Positions 2-29,732 of a DNA stretch of 29,732 bases are shown one piece after another. Both the position numbers and the translations under genes were made by a program. The stretch is from a virus: positions 1 through 29,732 of the IMG/VR virus record IMGVR_UViG_3300017917_000353; one strand, 5' to 3'. The stretch's first letter is position 1, and every line of letters begins with the position of its first letter. Under the pieces are notes generated by a model that did not search any database, had not been told where the DNA came from, and saw only the letters and a list, made by a program, of their open reading frames with translations.

Positions 2-1522
2 GCAAGACATTTAAAAGAGAGAAGGGCAGCAGAGGATATATTTTTTGAACTTTTATGGAAGGGATGGTTAAGTCCTAGTACACCTATTCTAGCCAATATG
101 GGTACAGATAGGGGATTACCTGTTTCTTGTTCTGGTGGTTATATCCATGATAGTATTGATGGATTTTATACATCAAGAAGAGAGACTGCAATACTAACTA
201 AATATGGTTTTGGTACATCTGGATATTTGGGGGATATAAGACCTAGAGGTAGTGATATTAGTATAGGAGGGAAAGCAAGTGGTATCTTACCTGTATTTAA
301 AGGGTTTGTTAGAGATATGCAAGAGGTTTCTCAGGGAGCAACTAGACGTGGTGCTTGGTCTGGATACTTGCCAATCGATCATGGAGATTTTGATGAGATA
401 TGTGATTTTCTACATCATAATCCTGACGACCTCAATATTGGTTGGTGTATCTCTGATAAATTTATTTCTAAATTAGACAAAGGTGATATAGAGTCTATAC
501 GTAGGTATCAAAAAGTATTAAAAACTAAAATGATTACTGGTAAAGGGTATTTCTTCTTTACTGATAAAGCTAATCTATATAGACCGCAATGTTATAGAGA
601 TTTTGGTTTAGATGTAAAAGCTAGTAACCTATGTACAGAGATAATGCTCCATAGCTCTAATGACTATACATTCACTTGTGTACTATCTTCTATGAATCTA
701 GCTAAGTATGATGAGTGGAAAGATACTAAAGCAGTGTTTTGGGCTACTATCTTCCTTGATTGTGTAGCAAAGGAGTTTATAGAAAAAGCAAAAGGAATTT
801 CTGGATTAGAAAAGGCTGTCAAGTTTACAGAGAATGGTAGAGCATTAGGATTAGGTGTTTGTGGGTTTCATACATACTTACAAAGTAAAATGATAGCCTT
901 TGAATCACTAGAAGCTCAGTTCTTAAATACAGAAATATTTAGAAGTATAAGAAATCAAGCCGATGAAGCATCAGAGTATTTAGCTGTCGTTGTAGGTAGA
1001 CCACTTTGGTGTAAAAATACAGATAGAGCTAATACACATTTATTAGCTATTGCTCCGACCAAAAGTACAGCTTTAATAATGGGAGGTATATCAGAAGGTA
1101 TTAATCCTGATCCAGCAATGACTTATACACAAACAACTGCTGCTGGGGAAGTAGAAAGGATCAATCCTATTTTATTAAATTTAATGAAAGAGCGTAACGT
1201 ATATGACGATAAACACATTAATGAGATTGTTCAGAGTTTCGGAAGTGTACAAGGAGTTGATTGGCTCTCAGAACAAGAGAAGTTGGTATTTAGAACAGCT
1301 TTTGAGATCGATCAACGAGTTATCATTCGACTTGCAGCACAACGGCAAAGATTTATTGATCAAGGTCAAAGCATTAATCTCTTCTTTGCTGGAGATGCTA
1401 CGGAAGAATATATCAGTGAAGTTCATAAAGAAGCGTTTAGAGATCGCAACATTTTGTCTTTATATTACTGTCACAGTAAGGCAGGAGTCAAAGCAAGTGA
1501 AGGATGTGTAGCATGTCAATAG
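2..1522 (+). CDS. nrdA: Class I ribonucleotide reductase, alpha (catalytic) subunit, 5'-truncated by window edge
   Basis: Reduces ribonucleotides to deoxyribonucleotides in the cytoplasm, feeding phage DNA synthesis. The frame is open from base 2, so about 506 residues are visible and the N-terminal part lies outside the window; the first internal ATG at 98 is not the true start. Numbering from base 2, Cys43 in LPVSCSGG and the later cysteine in FTCVLSSMNL fit the active-site redox pair. NLCTEI (Asn209, Cys211, Glu213) is the catalytic N-x-C-x-E motif carrying the thiyl-radical cysteine. The LYY tyrosine pair (488-489), which relays the radical from the beta subunit, marks class I rather than class II. 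The tail GCVACQ supplies the C-terminal CxxC that re-reduces the active site. Gene nrdB is not in the window. The next gene overlaps its stop. Confidence 0.95.
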   Translation, partial: ARHLKERRAAEDIFFELLWKGWLSPSTPILANMGTDRGLPVSCSGGYIHDSIDGFYTSRRETAILTKYGFGTSGYLGDIRPRGSDISIGGKASGILPVFKGFVRDMQEVSQGATRRGAWSGYLPIDHGDFDEICDFLHHNPDDLNIGWCISDKFISKLDKGDIESIRRYQKVLKTKMITGKGYFFFTDKANLYRPQCYRDFGLDVKASNLCTEIMLHSSNDYTFTCVLSSMNLAKYDEWKDTKAVFWATIFLDCVAKEFIEKAKGISGLEKAVKFTENGRALGLGVCGFHTYLQSKMIAFESLEAQFLNTEIFRSIRNQADEASEYLAVVVGRPLWCKNTDRANTHLLAIAPTKSTALIMGGISEGINPDPAMTYTQTTAAGEVERINPILLNLMKERNVYDDKHINEIVQSFGSVQGVDWLSEQEKLVFRTAFEIDQRVIIRLAAQRQRFIDQGQSINLFFAGDATEEYISEVHKEAFRDRNILSLYYCHSKAGVKASEGCVACQ

Positions 1523-1755
1523 AGGATGAACGTAACGAATTTAAAGTTATGGATAGCTTAATGGAGATGGAGGAACCTATCTCTTATATGCTAGAGAGTT
1601 TAGCAGGTGATGTAGATGAGAAAGGTTTGAGTTATGATAAACCTATTATATTAACTTGGCAATATGAATCCTTACCAGGTTTAGGATTTACTTTAGTTAT
1701 TAAACCTCTACCACCAAATTTAGTTGATTATTTTACAGGAGATACAGTACATTGA
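1513..1755 (+). CDS. Small acidic protein of unknown function
   Basis: An 80-residue product (MSIEDERNEF...) that I do not recognise. An in-frame ATG at 1504 would add three residues, but the AAGGA at about 1499-1503 sits 9 nt before the ATG at 1513, so 1513 is preferred. The start overlaps the last codons of the reductase gene and the stop overlaps the start of the next gene, so it is translationally coupled within the nucleotide-metabolism operon. The N-terminal half is acidic (EDE, MEMEEP, DVDEK) and the C-terminal half hydrophobic and proline-containing, with no transmembrane segment or cysteine motif. Position suggests a small cytoplasmic accessory protein, but no function can be read from it. 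Confidence 0.75.
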   Translation: MSIEDERNEFKVMDSLMEMEEPISYMLESLAGDVDEKGLSYDKPIILTWQYESLPGLGFTLVIKPLPPNLVDYFTGDTVH

Positions 1756-2015
1756 GCAATGTTAATAATCCAAAACACTACACTCAAGGTAGTATAGAAT
1801 GTATAGACGCATTAGAAGCCGCCACTATTAATAAGAAAGGAATAGAGGCCGTATGTGTAGCAAACATTATTAAATATTTATGGAGGTATGAGAATAAAAA
1901 TGGTATTGAAGATGTTATGAAAGCTGATTGGTATTTACAAAAACTTTTACAGCATCTTGAAGATGAAATAGAAAACAAACCTAGTTATATTTCTTTAAAG
2001 GATGTTATATCATGA
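1752..2015 (+). CDS. DUF3310-type phage protein
   Basis: An 87-residue protein matching the DUF3310 pattern: NPKHYTQGSIECIDALEA near the N terminus, then a central ANIIKYLWRYENKNGIEDVMKA-like stretch (N-x-IKYLWRY) and a KADWYLQKLL helix. The family is common in phages. The T7 member gp1.7 is a nucleotide kinase, so a nucleotide-related role beside ribonucleotide reductase is plausible, but it is inferred. The start codon is TTG at 1752, overlapping the previous TGA. AGGAGA at 1737-1742 is a strong ribosome-binding site about 10 nt upstream. The only nearby ATG (1759) is in another frame, so TTG is well supported. The stop overlaps the next ATG (ATGA). Confidence 0.85.
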   Translation: MSNVNNPKHYTQGSIECIDALEAATINKKGIEAVCVANIIKYLWRYENKNGIEDVMKADWYLQKLLQHLEDEIENKPSYISLKDVIS

Positions 2016-2143
2016 GTTATGAAAAAATTTTATTAGAAAATCTTAAGAAGTTTTTAGAAGAAAATCCACAGAGTGATTTTGAATCTATTTGGTTGGAAGC
2101 AACAAAACAAGCAGATAAGAAATACACTTTACAATTTCAGTAA
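2012..2143 (+). CDS. 43-residue hypothetical protein
   Basis: Short gene starting at ATG 2012, which overlaps the TGA of the DUF3310 gene. AAGGA at 1998-2002 provides a ribosome-binding site. The product begins MSYEKILLENLKKFLEENPQ and is predicted to be mainly helical and charged, with one Trp. No domain recognised. It is coupled to its neighbours on both sides, the next start lying 15 nt after its stop. Coding is supported by start/stop coupling, a good ribosome-binding site and operon position rather than by homology. Confidence 0.65.
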   Translation: MSYEKILLENLKKFLEENPQSDFESIWLEATKQADKKYTLQFQ

Positions 2144-2158
2144 TTGAGGTTTACAATT

Positions 2159-2353
2159 ATGCCTGAATGGAAAAAATTACATGTTAGAAGATGGAAAGAA
2201 ATAGGTATAGAGAAAGTTAATTTTGTTAAACATGAGGATTTTAATTTTTCACCTCTTCATGCTAAACCTATAGATGGTTCAAATTGGTATTGGATTGATC
2301 AAGTACCTTACACTGAGGAAGTTTATGTACCAGATTTAGGTGAAATGCTCTAG
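2159..2353 (+). CDS. Small hypothetical protein, last gene of the plus-strand operon
   Basis: A 64-residue product, MPEWKKLHVRRW..., rich in Trp and Tyr toward its C terminus (SNWYWIDQVPYTEEVYV). A TTG at 2144 could extend it by five residues, but TGAGG at 2145-2149 is correctly spaced as a ribosome-binding site for the ATG at 2159, so the shorter form is chosen. No membrane segment or known motif is visible. It ends just before an inverted repeat that probably terminates this operon at the junction with the opposing late genes. Function unknown. Confidence 0.7.
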   Translation: MPEWKKLHVRRWKEIGIEKVNFVKHEDFNFSPLHAKPIDGSNWYWIDQVPYTEEVYVPDLGEML

Positions 2354-2367
2354 GATTGATTAAAAAG

Positions 2368-2435
2368 AGCTACAATCGATTTTAGGTAGTTTTAATATGA
2401 TTATATCAACCTCTACTTTATAATTGATTGTAGCT
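2368..2435. terminator. Inverted repeat at convergent junction, probable two-way terminator
   Basis: AGCTACAATCGATT (2368-2381) is matched by AATTGATTGTAGCT (2422-2435), 13 of 14 positions complementary (the exception a G-T wobble), with about 40 nt between the arms. It lies between the converging plus operon (ends 2353) and minus block (ends 2444), where a terminator acting on both transcripts is expected. Neither side has a classic T run directly after the stem, so the assignment rests on position and symmetry. Confidence 0.55.
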
Positions 2436-2443
2436 TAAACTGA

Positions 2444-2746
2444 TCAATGTTTTTCTCTGCGTAAATGATCCTCAATTGAAATAAGTTGCCCTCTCATGTT
2501 AGAAAGCATATTTGATATGTCAACTCTTAAAATTGCTATATCATCTTTAGTAACATGATTTTTTGCAATCTCTAATTTGAAATCTGCTAAGTCATCTTCT
2601 AATTTCCTTACATTTTTTTCGTGTTCATCTAATGTGGTATATAATCTTTTAATATAAAAAGCTAAAATACCACATGCACCAGATACGACAGTTATAATCA
2701 CATTTGCTATAACTGCAAAATCCACTTGTTGTAAAAGTTCTTGCAT
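2444..2746 (-). CDS. Membrane-anchored coiled-coil protein, holin candidate
   Basis: A 100-residue protein with one N-terminal transmembrane segment (about residues 10-32, with VIANVIITVVSGACGILAF) followed by a long charged coiled-coil (about 35-100, with LDEHEKNVRKLEDDLADFK). This single-span plus coiled-coil layout is seen in phage holin-like and virion-associated membrane proteins. It is not Rz-like, since a complete Rz/Rz1 pair exists elsewhere. It is the last gene of the late block, 8 nt after the lytic-transglycosylase ejection protein, which would suit either a holin or an accessory to genome ejection. No family assigned with confidence. Confidence 0.7.
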   Translation of the reverse strand: MQELLQQVDFAVIANVIITVVSGACGILAFYIKRLYTTLDEHEKNVRKLEDDLADFKLEIAKNHVTKDDIAILRVDISNMLSNMRGQLISIEDHLRREKH

Positions 2747-2754
2747 GTCTCACC

Positions 2755-5085
2755 TTAGCTCATTTTCCTTTCTGCAAATTTAATTACATCTCCTACTGTT
2801 TTACCTGCTAGTATAGATTTATTAGCTGTTATAGCATCCTGTCTAATTATTTTCTCAGTTGGTAGACTTGGATCAGCATTTAATACTCTAACTGCTGTTT
2901 GTGCACCTAAAAAATGAGCTAGATACAAATTAGTATCTGTAGTGGGTATATTGCTATTGCTTAATACCTTCTTATTATCTTCTATATGTTTATCTAAAAC
3001 CTTTTTACTCCATTCAGGATTAGTGCGAAGTTTTAATAATGCTTCATCTGATTTCCCTTCAGCTAAATCAGGGAAATGACTTTTAATAGTGGACAACCAT
3101 GTACTATTTGTAAATTGCCCTAATCCTGTGGCAGTGCTATTTGGATTCTTAGCATTTGGATTACCACTAGATTCCACTCCTATTATCTTTTTTGCTAAGG
3201 TTGACTCTCCGGCACCTGACTTACTAAAACTACTACTATCTAATTTCAAAACATCAACATAAGCATCTTTGATTTGATTCCATGCTTGATCAATACTCCA
3301 TCCACCAATGTTAGCAAATGTCTTAATCATACGATTAACACGTCTAGCGTATTTATCATTTAATTCAGATTCCAGTTGTGCATCACCTTTAACGACATAA
3401 CGTATACCTACACCAGGAACTTCAACTGCTTTAACATCTTTCCCTTGAGTTTTACTCTCTAAAGCTCTACCAATATATCCTATATATTGTCCACCCATAG
3501 AAAATAAATCAGTGATGGCTTCATTACTTCCAGTTTGTCTAGCTTGTTGTCCAACATTAGGTTGACTAAAAGAATCTGTAAAACTATCCATGAAATTAAA
3601 TACATCGTCTTGAGTCATTTGACCTGACTTAGAAATGTCTTTATACATCTTGACAGATTTCATGAACAAATCACCATTACCAGAATCTAGTGCAGCTTTA
3701 GAAAAACCAACTGCATCAATAACACCTGGAGTATTGCCACGTGATTTCATCATTTCTGCTACACGCCCACCTGTAACATTTCCATGAAATATATCTGCAC
3801 CAGCTTTTATTAAGGCATCTTGTATTTCTGGATTTCTAAATACCCATGTACTCAATACATCACTTGACCCTACTAAGCGAAGCCAAGGGACATTAACTTT
3901 ATCTTGTACAGACATCTCTTGAAGTTTTTCAGTGATGTTATGTTGAGTGTTTAATATTTCTAATTTATCTTTTCCTGATACATCTCCTTCTAGTCTTTTA
4001 ATGGTATTATCCATACCATCCATTAATGTATCAAAATAAAACTTACCTTCTCCAGAAGATAGAGATATTTTACCACCAACACTTTCTATGATAGAAGTTC
4101 TATGTTGATCACGTAAATCTTTTATTTGTCTAATAGCCTCTTCTGGATTATCTTTATTACTTTGAACTATTGCTGAAGCATCCATATGAAAAGCAGCTAG
4201 TCCCCCTTTGAGTAGCTTAGCTCCATTTTGATTTAAGAATTGTTGCCCTTCTTGGGCATTTTGTATATTATTTAATTTATCACTTTCAGTGATGTTAGTG
4301 TATAATGAAATATTACGTTTACGTGCATTTGTTGCATCCTGTACTTCCATCAAATAATCTGGATCATCTAACCTAAAAGCATCTATTTCTACATTATGTT
4401 TAGATGCTTCTTTTAGAACAAAAGATTTTTGTTGCTGAAAAGCCTTTTGAGCAGCATTATCTAACTTCATCTGAGTGTCACGAAGTGATCCTACACCAGA
4501 CAGAGACAAGATTTTTTCTGCATGATTTAGAAGTTCAGCAGAAAGACCAGGATTGTTATTAATATGTTTACGAGTAATAGCAAGTAGTCTAGTTTGTAAT
4601 TCTGAAGGTTGTATAACACCTTGTTGATTTGCAAATCTAAGAGCTTGTGTCTCTTTGTCAAAAGCCTCAAGATTGGCATCTAAATCTCCTATAGTTGCTT
4701 GACCTTTACCTAATTTATCCCATAGAGAGTGAGAAGCTAAATCTAAACTAGCTGCATTTTCAGCAGCAGATTTTGCTAATTCAGGATTTTGTCTCATAGC
4801 AAGGAAATCATCTATCTCCTTGTTCTGTTCTTGTTGTAGTTGAGCTAAGGCATGCCCTTTATAAATCTCTAATCCTGTATCAACTATAGAAGGAATAACC
4901 TTACTAAGATTTTCAATAGCAACAGCCTCAGTTCTTTTTGCTGTAGCAGTTACACCTAATGCAGCAGCTTCCCCTTGACCTGCAAGTAATCCACTTTTAT
5001 CAACCACACCTTGTCTAACAAAGCTAGAAGCAGCTAGATTAGGAGCTGATAAACCTGTTTTAACATCTACATCTCTTTGTGCCAT
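2755..5085 (-). CDS. Ejection (internal virion) protein with C-terminal lytic transglycosylase domain
   Basis: A 776-residue protein. Residues about 1-620 are mostly helical and Ala/Gln/Lys-rich without a recognised catalytic motif. Residues about 628-776 form an SLT-type lytic transglycosylase domain: AKKIIGVESSGN carries the likely catalytic Glu638, followed by the GLGQFTNSTW motif and an AHFLGAQTAV helix. Such virion enzymes cleave glycan strands in peptidoglycan to open a path for DNA entry. In T7 the equivalent domain is at the N terminus of gp16; here it closes a shorter protein. It follows the 1601-residue protein by 12 nt with an AAGGA ribosome-binding site, so the two are co-expressed and probably share the ejection apparatus. 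Confidence 0.88.
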   Translation of the reverse strand: MAQRDVDVKTGLSAPNLAASSFVRQGVVDKSGLLAGQGEAAALGVTATAKRTEAVAIENLSKVIPSIVDTGLEIYKGHALAQLQQEQNKEIDDFLAMRQNPELAKSAAENAASLDLASHSLWDKLGKGQATIGDLDANLEAFDKETQALRFANQQGVIQPSELQTRLLAITRKHINNNPGLSAELLNHAEKILSLSGVGSLRDTQMKLDNAAQKAFQQQKSFVLKEASKHNVEIDAFRLDDPDYLMEVQDATNARKRNISLYTNITESDKLNNIQNAQEGQQFLNQNGAKLLKGGLAAFHMDASAIVQSNKDNPEEAIRQIKDLRDQHRTSIIESVGGKISLSSGEGKFYFDTLMDGMDNTIKRLEGDVSGKDKLEILNTQHNITEKLQEMSVQDKVNVPWLRLVGSSDVLSTWVFRNPEIQDALIKAGADIFHGNVTGGRVAEMMKSRGNTPGVIDAVGFSKAALDSGNGDLFMKSVKMYKDISKSGQMTQDDVFNFMDSFTDSFSQPNVGQQARQTGSNEAITDLFSMGGQYIGYIGRALESKTQGKDVKAVEVPGVGIRYVVKGDAQLESELNDKYARRVNRMIKTFANIGGWSIDQAWNQIKDAYVDVLKLDSSSFSKSGAGESTLAKKIIGVESSGNPNAKNPNSTATGLGQFTNSTWLSTIKSHFPDLAEGKSDEALLKLRTNPEWSKKVLDKHIEDNKKVLSNSNIPTTDTNLYLAHFLGAQTAVRVLNADPSLPTEKIIRQDAITANKSILAGKTVGDVIKFAERKMS

Positions 5086-27567: not shown

Positions 27568-27780
27568 CTCTTAAGTTTTTTAGACCTCTGGATTTTTTGC
27601 TAGAAAAATTTTAGGTGCAATGCACTACAAAACCTACAGACTAAAACCCCTGCTACCCCTTCAACATAGAAGGGATTATTTAATAGATATTAATATAATT
27701 ATATATATATTAATAAATAATATTAATTATATACACAATAATAAATAATATTTATATATAAATAAATAATAAATATATTA

Positions 27781-27820
27781 ATTAATATAATAATACTGTA
27801 AGTATTATTATTATATTAAT
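27781..27820. repeat. Bulged palindrome 1 in the A/T tract
   Basis: ATTAATATAATAATACT (27781-27797) is complementary to 27801-27820 (AGTATTATTATTATATTAAT) across a 3-nt centre, with three extra bases (one ATT unit) in the right arm. This gives a 17-bp stem with one bulge. Confidence 0.8.
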
Positions 27821-27860
27821 TATATAAATATATAAACTAATAATATATTAATAATAATAT

Positions 27861-27901
27861 ATTTATATAATAAGTACATAAGTACTTATTATTATATAAA
27901 T
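27861..27901. repeat. Bulged palindrome 2 in the A/T tract
   Basis: ATTTATATAATAAGTAC (27861-27877) is complementary to 27882-27901 (GTACTTATTATTATATAAAT) around ATAA, again with exactly one extra three-base unit in the right arm. Same architecture as palindrome 1, with partial further symmetry outside the arms. Confidence 0.8.
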
Positions 27902-27937
27902 ATATATTAATATTAATTAATATATATATAAAATCTT

Positions 27938-27966
27938 ATTATAACACATCTTAACAGATGTGTAAA
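27938..27966 (-). promoter_or_regulatory. Sigma70-type promoter with dyad operator filling the spacer
   Basis: Minus strand: TTTACA (27966 down to 27961), 17-nt spacer, TATAAT (27943 down to 27938). The spacer is occupied by a perfect dyad, ACACATCT (27944-27951), TAAC, AGATGTGT (27956-27963), touching both hexamers. A dimeric repressor bound there would block polymerase. Transcription would run through the A/T tract toward the late block. On the plus strand the same dyad could act as a terminator stem, with TTTTTT following 6 nt later. Confidence 0.6.
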
Positions 27967-27980
27967 GTCTTTTTTACTAA

Positions 27981-28019
27981 ATAAGTGTGCAATGATTCTT
28001 CCAATCATTCCCCACTTAT
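27981..28019. repeat. Compound inverted repeat (two-part hairpin)
   Basis: Inner stem AATGATT (27991-27997) / AATCATT (28003-28009) around CTTCC, and outer stem ATAAGTG (27981-27987) / CACTTAT (28013-28019), separated by a 3 x 3 internal loop. Fourteen base pairs in all. A perfect 16-bp A/T palindrome follows at 28022-28037. It may be a structured RNA or a protein-binding site next to the control region. Confidence 0.6.
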
Positions 28020-28076
28020 AATATATAATATTATATAATATAATTAAGTAGTTACAATCTTTCTTTAAAATACTAC

Positions 28077-28106
28077 TAAAGTTTCTTTCTGTTGATTCGT
28101 TAACAT
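28077..28106 (+). promoter_or_regulatory. Plus-strand cassette promoter motif, copy 1
   Basis: TAAAGTTTCT (28077-28086), 11 nt, CG (28098-28099), 1 nt, TAACAT (28101-28106). Spacing is identical to copies 2-4, with two mismatches in the box. It precedes the first small plus-strand gene at 28148. It is the most divergent copy. Confidence 0.5.
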
Positions 28107-28147
28107 CTACAACACCAACAAAAATATTTCTTAAACGAAGGGAACTT

Positions 28148-28264
28148 ATGGACATCACTACAATCTACAACAATGTGCAACAACCAATTTACTACATTTA
28201 TTTCTTGACAAATAAACCAATTTACTATTACGATGTGCTTAATGATTCAATTGTTTATTTCTAA
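28148..28264 (+). CDS. 38-residue Tyr/Asn-rich peptide
   Basis: Short reading frame starting MDITTIYNNVQQPIYYIYFL, with nine Tyr residues and no basic residue other than one Lys. AAGGGA (28138-28143) is a good ribosome-binding site, though only 4 nt from the ATG. It is the first frame after promoter copy 1 and is followed 11 nt later by another ribosome-binding-site-led frame. No known family. Coding is supported by the ribosome-binding site and arrangement, not by homology. Confidence 0.5.
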   Translation: MDITTIYNNVQQPIYYIYFLTNKPIYYYDVLNDSIVYF

Positions 28265-28275
28265 CGAGGTGAGAT

Positions 28276-28347
28276 ATGAGACTAATTCTGATTCTACTAG
28301 CAATGCTATCAATGCTAATTTATAAATTTATTTTATATTTTGATTAA
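28276..28347 (+). CDS. 23-residue hydrophobic micropeptide
   Basis: Reads MRLILILLAMLSMLIYKFIL plus YFD: almost one continuous transmembrane helix. GAGGTGA lies directly upstream as a strong ribosome-binding site. Its stop codon TAA forms the first three bases of promoter copy 2. Membrane micropeptides of this kind can be host-membrane disruptors, inhibitors or regulators, but no specific role is supported. It could also be a chance frame. Confidence 0.45.
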   Translation: MRLILILLAMLSMLIYKFILYFD

Positions 28348-28374
28348 AGTTTTATTTCTAAATACCGATATAAT
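28345..28374 (+). promoter_or_regulatory. Plus-strand cassette promoter motif, copy 2
   Basis: TAAAGTTTTA (28345-28354), 11 nt, CG (28366-28367), 1 nt, TATAAT (28369-28374). The box starts on the TAA stop of the preceding micropeptide. The hexamer is a perfect -10, and the box would lie at about -36 to -27, where an activator or an altered -35 contact would be expected. Confidence 0.75.
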
Positions 28375-28398
28375 ATTACAACTAACAAGGAGAATATA

Positions 28399-28560
28399 AT
28401 GAAATATTTAACATACCATAGAAAGCCAACAACATATGAAATTAAATTAGGATATGGTGCAATACATTACATGGATTTCCCATATGAGGAATGTTTGAAA
28501 AAGGATGGAAGTATTAAGAAAAGATTAAAATTTGAAGGATTAATCTATACAAGACACTAA
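28399..28560 (+). CDS. 53-residue hypothetical protein
   Basis: Small basic protein, MKYLTYHRKPTTYEIKLGYG..., predicted beta in the first half, with Cys32 and a Lys-rich C-terminal part (LKKDGSIKKRLKFEGLIYTR). AAGGAG at 28387-28392 is a near-perfect ribosome-binding site, and promoter copy 2 lies 24 nt upstream, giving a short leader. It is followed by another gene after 11 nt. No family recognised. Small early-type phage proteins of this sort often modify host functions, but nothing here shows which. Confidence 0.7.
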   Translation: MKYLTYHRKPTTYEIKLGYGAIHYMDFPYEECLKKDGSIKKRLKFEGLIYTRH

Positions 28561-28571
28561 AGGAGATTAAC

Positions 28572-28760
28572 ATGATAGAATCAAAATATACATTACAAAG
28601 TATGATAACAGGAAGATATATAAGTTCTTTATTCTCTGACTTACATAATGAAACATTCCAAGGTCGGTCATTAAATGACTGCTATGTATGGAATTCATTA
28701 GAAGCAGTTACACGAGTTAAACAAGAAATAGATTTTAGTTTAATAGTAAAAATAAATTAA
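28572..28760 (+). CDS. 62-residue hypothetical protein
   Basis: Protein beginning MIESKYTLQSMITGRYISSL. It contains YVWNSLEAVTRVKQEIDFSL near the C terminus and one Cys. AGGAG lies 7 nt before the ATG, and the gene is the second of the promoter copy 2 cassette. The TAA stop at 28758 is the start of promoter copy 3. I do not recognise a family. It lacks transmembrane segments and is likely cytoplasmic. Confidence 0.68.
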   Translation: MIESKYTLQSMITGRYISSLFSDLHNETFQGRSLNDCYVWNSLEAVTRVKQEIDFSLIVKIN

Positions 28761-28787
28761 AGTTTTATTTTAGAGTGTCGTTATAGT
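28758..28787 (+). promoter_or_regulatory. Plus-strand cassette promoter motif, copy 3
   Basis: TAAAGTTTTA (28758-28767), 11 nt, CG (28779-28780), 1 nt, TATAGT (28782-28787). It overlaps the stop of the preceding gene in the same register as copy 2 and lies 31 nt before the ATG at 28819. Confidence 0.72.
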
Positions 28788-28818
28788 TTTATAAACAATT
28801 TAATATAGGAGAAATAAA

Positions 28819-29199
28819 ATGATTATACTAAATGGAATAAAAATTGAAATGGAAATAATAGATCATAATTTTGGGTTATATTTTCCTCAAGATACAAAAG
28901 AAAGAGATATATACACATGTAGATTAAAAGCTAACAATAGACAATATACTTTTAAATTTGGACAATCTTTAGCAAAGCATGGGGTAGAACCAGAATTAAA
29001 GGATGTTCTAGAATGTTTTACCTGGTATAATCCTAATAGTTTTGAAGATTTCTGTAAAGATTATGGCTATAATAACGATCCTATTTCTGCCTATAAGATA
29101 TACAAAAGTGTTATGAAAGAATATAAAGCACTTTTGAGAATGTTTGGTTCAGAAGAAACTTTAATAGATTTAGCAGATGCTATTTTTAATGGAGAATAA
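28819..29199 (+). CDS. Conserved phage protein of unknown function
   Basis: A 126-residue protein. The segment KDVLECFTWYNPNSFEDFCK followed by DYGYNNDPISAYKIYKSVMK matches a pattern I know from many phage proteins (DVLxCLxxYDPxxFEDFCxxFGY...KAxxIYxxVxxE). The biochemical role of that group is not established. The N-terminal part (IILNGIKIEMEIIDHNFG, YTCRLKANNRQYTFKFGQ) is beta-rich. AGGAG precedes the ATG and the gene is the first of the copy 3 cassette. It is predicted to be soluble, with three Cys. The 3' end runs directly into the next gene, with the ribosome-binding site of that gene inside its last codons. Confidence 0.75.
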   Translation: MIILNGIKIEMEIIDHNFGLYFPQDTKERDIYTCRLKANNRQYTFKFGQSLAKHGVEPELKDVLECFTWYNPNSFEDFCKDYGYNNDPISAYKIYKSVMKEYKALLRMFGSEETLIDLADAIFNGE

Positions 29200-29201
29200 T
29201 T

Positions 29202-29456
29202 ATGAGATACTTTGCTCAGTATTACAGATACAGCGATACGCCAGTTCTAGGCTTCGACCAGTTTTTAGTCGAAGCGGACGATAACGCGGGGATTTTGGAA
29301 CTCGATGGTAGGTTATCTTTTTTTAGCATGTTTAACGCAGCCTTAGACGCTAATAAATCCCCTTCACGCAATTACCCTGCTTTGCGGATTATGCGAAAAG
29401 AATCGATCACATCAGGCGGTAATGTAATCCCTATATCAAGCATTATATTTATTTAA
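29202..29456 (+). CDS. Hypothetical protein with GC-rich, atypical codon use
   Basis: An 84-residue protein, MRYFAQYYRYSDTPVLGFDQ..., with ILELDGRLSFFSMFNAALDA in the middle. GGAG at about 29190 serves as ribosome-binding site. Its GC content (around 41-44% by count) is well above that of the preceding gene (about 27% in a sampled stretch), and it uses codons such as GCG, CGC, CGG and ACG that are rare in neighbours. This suggests recent transfer from a higher-GC source. An 8-bp perfect inverted repeat (GCTTCGAC/GTCGAAGC, 29251-29275) lies in the coding region. No family assigned. Confidence 0.68.
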   Translation: MRYFAQYYRYSDTPVLGFDQFLVEADDNAGILELDGRLSFFSMFNAALDANKSPSRNYPALRIMRKESITSGGNVIPISSIIFI

Positions 29457-29463
29457 ATATTAA

Positions 29464-29480
29464 AAACCACACATGGGTTT
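29464..29480 (+). repeat. Small intergenic hairpin
   Basis: AAACCA and TGGGTTT can pair around CACA with one bulged G, in the 43-nt gap before the 29500 gene. It has no U run after it, so termination is uncertain; it could be a weak terminator or an mRNA 5' structure. Confidence 0.35.
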
Positions 29481-29499
29481 ATTATAGAGGAAATACAAA

Positions 29500-29700
29500 A
29501 TGAGACAAATTACAAAACAAGAATTCATTAATTTAGTAGCTAATAAACCATATACAACTAAGAGAATAGAGTTAGGTAATGCTGTATATACAAACTATTA
29601 CAATAAACATAAAACCAATAGAGCAAAAGACGGTCATATAGTTGCAGCTATACGGGAAACAAAACTTGAGGGAATAAAATATTTTACAAATAAAAGCTAA
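29500..29700 (+). CDS. 66-residue hypothetical protein
   Basis: Basic protein, MRQITKQEFINLVANKPYTT..., with a polar middle (NYYNKHKTNRAKDGHIVAAI) and an LEGIKYFTNKS end. AGAGGA lies about 10 nt before the ATG. No membrane segment, cysteine or known motif. Return to an AT-rich base composition sets it apart from the preceding GC-richer gene. Its TAA stop (29698) is the first part of promoter copy 4, repeating the arrangement of the earlier cassettes. Function unknown. Confidence 0.7.
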   Translation: MRQITKQEFINLVANKPYTTKRIELGNAVYTNYYNKHKTNRAKDGHIVAAIRETKLEGIKYFTNKS

Positions 29701-29727
29701 AGTTTTAAAATACATTGACGTAATAGT
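29698..29727 (+). promoter_or_regulatory. Plus-strand cassette promoter motif, copy 4
   Basis: TAAAGTTTTA (29698-29707), 11 nt, CG (29719-29720), 1 nt, AATAGT (29722-29727). It again overlaps the preceding stop codon. The gene it would serve lies beyond the window end. Confidence 0.68.
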
Positions 29728-29732
29728 GTTAT

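Follow-up and report, generated by a model that had tools for sequence, protein, structure and literature searches.

Which RNA polymerase reads the first genes of a phage if the sites in front of them carry -10-like hexamers and lack a sigma-70 -35 element? This question is raised by four repeated promoter-like sites in the window analyzed here, which is the entire 29,732-base record of a podovirus-like phage with a GC content of 33%.

Position and sequence of the four promoter copies

The large terminase encoded in the window was 55-65% identical, over its full length, to those of Methylophilales phage MEP401, Lentibacter and Celeribacter phages, and Vibrio phage ICP2. MEP401 and ICP2 are members of the Zobellviridae, and the window phage appears to be a Zobellviridae-like, low-GC podovirus. 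Its structural genes are carried on the minus strand from approximately 27.5 kb down to 2.4 kb, and small plus-strand genes begin at approximately 28.1 kb, past a strongly AT-rich divergent region. In MEP401, MW202697, and ICP2, the early gene block opens at the same divergent point. Because the early block starts at this point and the record ends, the early region is represented in the window by its first 1.6 kb alone, and the record probably lacks approximately 40% of the phage genome. The divergent region between the late and early genes (27660-28030) was very AT-rich and full of palindromes. In addition, a minus-strand TTTACA-N17-TATAAT sequence with a TG (27966-27938) had the look of a sigma-70 promoter and is a candidate for the transcription of the structural genes. 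A terminase search of bacterial genomes found no relative of the window phage, and an array-specific pattern search of bacterial genomes gave no match.

When the whole window was scanned for TAAAGTTT-N13-CG, four copies with identical spacing were found on the plus strand, all in the last 1.7 kb; there was none elsewhere, and the count on the minus strand was zero. Dinucleotide shuffles of positions 28037-29732 contained 0.0027 copies on average and one at most, and none of 20,000 shuffles reached four. The scan thereby confirmed the four copies of identical internal spacing (28077, 28345, 28758, and 29698) that had been described in the first-pass annotation of this DNA. The -35 element and the hexamer are AT-rich, as expected if the copies were a chance or compositional artefact of the AT-rich early region; in view of the shuffles and of the lack of copies on the minus strand and in the rest of the window, such an origin is hardly credible.

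Copy 1 (TAAAGTTTCTTTCTGTTGATTCGTTAACAT, 28077-28106) consists of TAAAGTTT at 28077-28084, CG at 28098-28099, and the hexamer TAACAT at 28101-28106. Copy 2 (TAAAGTTTTATTTCTAAATACCGATATAAT, 28345-28374) has the form TAAAGTTT-N11-ACCGATAT followed by AAT, and copies 3 (TAAAGTTTTATTTTAGAGTGTCGTTATAGT, 28758-28787) and 4 (TAAAGTTTTAAAATACATTGACGTAATAGT, 29698-29727) have the forms TAAAGTTT-N11-GTCGTTAT and TAAAGTTT-N11-GACGTAAT, respectively, each followed by AGT. The ten-base box TAAAGTTTTA, earlier given as common to all copies, was exact in three of them; the 28077 copy reads TAAAGTTTCT and shares only TAAAGTTT. A search for this ten-base box together with the hexamer of the first-pass annotation returned 22 viral-contig matches, most of which were located inside long coding frames (KVL...DIV-type peptides), and the combination was therefore rejected as not diagnostic. 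Short AT-rich blastn matches around the motif, from Campylobacter, Fusobacterium, and faecal phages, were also discarded; they had the wrong spacing and no CG.

All of the genes around the copies are on the plus strand. Promoter 1, which has no gene ahead of it, is followed by a small early frame of 38 aa (28148-28264). A 23-aa hydrophobic frame with a ribosome-binding site (28276-28347; read by eye) ends within promoter 2, which precedes a 53-aa early gene, phrog_38643 (28399-28560). Similarly, a 62-aa early gene (28572-28760) ends within promoter 3, upstream of the 126-aa early gene phrog_4273 (28819-29199), and a 66-aa early gene for which no relatives were found (29500-29700) ends within promoter 4; the frame served by promoter 4 falls beyond the window end. 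In these three copies the first TAA of the box was indeed the stop codon of the upstream gene, as had been noticed before. A ribosome-binding-site-like sequence was present at the frames starting at 28148, 28399, and 28819, implying leaders of approximately 20-35 nt downstream of three copies. An 84-aa orphan gene (29202-29456), which has no phage homologue that we could find and is apparently more GC-rich than its AT-rich neighbors, is possibly a recent acquisition. In a search for early-gene relatives, made to examine the conservation of the motif, the homologues were distant or absent, and none carried it.

Correspondence to the sigma-28 (FliA) consensus

The view that these promoter-like sites have no sigma-70 -35 element was supported. 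Read from the sequence, at most two of six positions matched TTGACA at a distance of 16-18 nt, and no site listed in a sigma-70 consensus scan used any of the four hexamers. The published consensus of sigma-28 (FliA) promoters is TAAAGTTT-N11-GCCGATAA (PMC2859248). All eight positions of TAAAGTTT were matched in the four copies, and the N11 spacing and the CG of the extended -10 were exact in each of them. The altered sigma specificity suggested in the first-pass annotation thus gains support, in that box, spacing, and CG are those of the sigma-28 consensus. Both strands of the window were then scored with a matrix based on the 25 FliA sites that have a FAT score of >4 in E. coli ChIP-seq data (PMC4183435). 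The copies at 28345, 28758, 28077, and 29698 ranked first, second, seventh, and tenth, respectively, in the whole window. In the early region, the plus-strand scores were 17.7, 13.9, 9.2, and 9.0, compared with 3.7 for the best reverse-strand site, and none of 2,000 shuffles equalled the four sites.

The sites therefore resemble bacterial sigma-28 (FliA/SigD) class 3 flagellar promoters in the -35 sequence TAAAGTTT, the N11 spacer, and the CG of the extended -10. They differ from them in preceding small phage genes, where the use of sigma-28 is a prediction, and in a core -10 that departs from GCCGATAA in three of the four copies. The match to GCCGATAA was weak, at 5, 6, 5, and 4 of 8 positions across the four copies; the -10 reads ACCGATAT at 28345 and TTCGTTAA, GTCGTTAT, and GACGTAAT at the remaining three sites. 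The bases from the CG onward were CGATAT in one copy and CGTTA, CGTTA, and CGTAA in three, unlike the arrays of other phages described below, which almost always keep CGA. One E. coli FliA ChIP-seq site, in secD, carries CGTTAT (PMC4183435), and the variant -10 may therefore still be compatible with FliA. On the other hand, the hexamers TATAAT, TATAGT, AATAGT, and TAACAT fit sigma-70 about equally well, and because the -10 bases can be read in this way, there is room for sigma-70 with an activator or for dual use.

In the former case, a phage-encoded activator would act as MotA does, binding TAAAGTTT(TA) at -36 to -27 and bringing the sigma-70 polymerase of the host to the TATAAT-like hexamer. 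The hexamers, the lack of TTGACA, the MotA-like position of the box, and the ten bases common to three copies, which exceed the need of a sigma-28 -35, speak for this possibility. In T4 middle promoters, too, a box near -30 takes the place of the sigma-70 -35 and is combined with a TATAAT-like hexamer. The T4 MotA box, centred near -30, has the consensus WWTGCTTYA. However, AAAGTTTTA lacks the TGC core, and the box showed no match to the MotA consensus; the window sites further differ from T4 middle promoters in their box sequence, in the fixed CG, and in genes that look early rather than middle. Since these genes appear to be the first transcribed, they would be read ahead of the presence of any phage activator. 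A MotA family search of the partial-genome window gave no match, and neither did the control search anywhere. An activator offers no reason for the identity of box, spacing, and CG with the sigma-28 consensus. The T4 middle-promoter likeness in position that had been drawn did not extend to the sequence, the box being unlike the MotA consensus and the fixed CG being left unaccounted for. What had been taken for an anonymous, phage-specific activator box is the known sigma-28 -35 element, correctly spaced from the sigma-28 CG, and a phage-specific activator is therefore needless. We regard an activator as unlikely, and as less likely than host sigma-28.

In the case of dual promoters, host sigma-28 would read TAAAGTTT and the CG, and host sigma-70 would read the overlapping TATAAT as a CG variant of an extended -10. 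CGATATAAT in copy 2 satisfies both sigmas, and TTGAC was present inside the spacer in 10 of the 124 perfect sigma-28 sites among the viral-contig matches listed, many of them with a sigma-70-like hexamer downstream. However, TTGACA is absent from the window sites, and sigma-70 prefers TG, not CG, at the extended -10. We consider this arrangement improbable, and equally so its consequence that the early genes would be read in both motile and non-motile cells; it refines transcription by host sigma-28 more than it contradicts it.

The altered -10 would be explained if the phage encoded its own sigma factor, similar in specificity to sigma-28, to read the sites; the gene for it could sit in the probably missing part of the genome. 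Searches of the window for Sigma70_r2 and FliA gave no match, and a sigma-70 region 2 gene was absent from all 14 records tested (the window, its relative G002, and twelve records with sigma-28 sites). A host sigma factor is therefore indicated, and a phage sigma factor is very doubtful.

Sigma-28 arrays in other phages and the fusion of promoter and stop codon

In IMG/VR viral contigs, the perfect sigma-28 consensus was found in at least 120 stretches at the correct spacing, compared with 17 at a wrong spacing (the same half-sites at N16). Among the matches listed, 87 of 124 distinct, correctly spaced sites were outside reading frames of at least 100 aa, compared with 2 of 11 control sites. 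The sites formed one-stranded clusters, with forward and reverse counts of 11 and 0 in G013, 9 and 0 in G015, 0 and 4 in G016, 1 and 7 in G020, and 2 and 11 in G024. All 11 sites of G013, the source of L110, were within 458-5037, i.e., there were up to 11 sites in 5 kb. G013 encodes a RepO-like replication initiator and RecE, G014 a terminase and a primase, and in G015 (L239, 5607-14849) sigma-28-type sites are immediately followed by DUF932 and rIIA/rIIB-like genes; this gene content supports the phage origin of the records examined. In G013 (L236, 458-5037), an unrelated, temperate-looking phage, the sites are situated between consecutive small genes, several of them coinciding with the preceding stop codon or no more than 7 nt away from it, and the -10 is followed by another conserved stretch, which is TAGTATA-like. 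G020 (L243) has a 685-aa frame at the same relative place as the rIIA/rIIB-like genes of G015.

Like the window sites, the IMG/VR arrays (G013, G015, G016, G020, and G024) are one-stranded, lie between small genes, in many cases overlapping the stop codon, and occur with no phage sigma gene. They differ from the window sites in keeping CGATA in the -10, and their phages are unrelated to the window phage in the main structural proteins. When six structural proteins of the window were compared with the array records, only the terminase was matched, weakly (approximately 25% identity), in L150 and G014; judged from these proteins, the array phages are not closely related to the window phage. TTGAC(A) within the sigma-28 spacer, often with a sigma-70-like hexamer downstream, was observed at L086 1601, L115 3058 and 3609, and L112 5684, and composites of the same type were found at L153 8252, L163 11304, L164 3176, and L191 5006 (positions counted on the matched strand). 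These composites are apparent sigma-28/sigma-70 dual sites and suggest that some phages hedge between the two sigmas.

The exact motif was absent from twelve phage relatives identified by terminase, and the early regions of MEP401, MW202697, ICP2, and G002 had no sigma-28 cluster. No array was present in the first 50 kb of the cultured flagellotropic phages Chi and 7-7-1, and use of the flagellum as a receptor is therefore not in itself a predictor of such promoters. In Salmonella phage Chi, a single sigma-28-like site, TCAAGTTTTACAACACTATGCCGATAT (L254, 40093), lies a short distance ahead of the lysis genes. A Salmonella prophage site was degenerate in its Fels-1 copy, which was dropped.

Stop/promoter fusion was counted at sites outside long frames among the viral-contig loci listed. 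The TAA of the -35 terminated an upstream frame of 40 aa or more at 25 of 100 sigma-28 sites, compared with 1 of 76 control TAAAGTT boxes without CG (Fisher p = 2.6e-6, on rows that are not fully independent, related phages recurring). Among the matches listed, the stop-to-box offset peaked only at zero (23 of 87), with no more than 5 at any other offset. The fusion pointed out in the first-pass annotation is thus real in the window and recurs as a general feature of the promoters of array phages. The -35 begins with TAA and can therefore double as a stop codon, and economy is the simplest reading of the fusion. A putative exchange of cassettes at the stop/promoter seam is possible. In T4-type phages, small early genes are reportedly separated by repeated promoter elements with a stem-loop beside each, as mobile promoter/stem-loop cassettes. 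The window resembles these in its small early genes separated by repeated promoters, but its promoters are fused to stop codons and the mobility is only putative; no stem-loop was found at the cassette borders, the two terminator-like sites (27657 and 27944) being upstream of all four promoters.

Proposed transcription by the host flagellar sigma factor

Phage early promoters are normally regarded as strong sigma-70 sites. From the motif, we infer with a probability of about 0.6 that transcription of the first phage genes in the window starts from the four sites and is due to the sigma-28 polymerase of the host; host identity and a coupling to motility are likewise inferred. TAAAGTTT, at approximately -36 to -29, would be the sigma-28 -35 element, the CG would be the extended -10 of sigma-28, and the bases after it would make up a -10 with a likeness to TATAAT as well. 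One small early gene or gene pair would be served by each promoter, and at three promoters the packing is so tight that the -35 supplies the stop codon of the preceding gene. FliA is released from its anti-sigma factor at a late stage of flagellar assembly. Early expression would be strongest in cells at this stage, and fliA-deficient cells would be expected to be resistant after DNA entry.

Sigma-28 arrays in unrelated phages appear to be unreported in the searchable papers and are more interesting than the window motif itself; a literature search of limited coverage, with subscription papers largely outside it, found no report of them. We see about an even chance that unrelated phage lineages, of which the window phage would be one example, independently built arrays of host sigma-28 promoters, often stop-fused, before their small early genes, with an early programme conditional on, or boosted by, the late flagellar stage. 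The array pattern can be searched for in any genome, and the stop-codon fusion provides a second, independent signature for locating such promoters. These arrays suggest a link, in some phages, between the first genes and the swimming programme of the host. If this is true, infection would be coupled to motility through early genes that need the flagellar sigma factor, a phage could wait in cells until the flagella are complete, and non-motile or fliA-defective hosts would resist infection after DNA entry, besides at adsorption.
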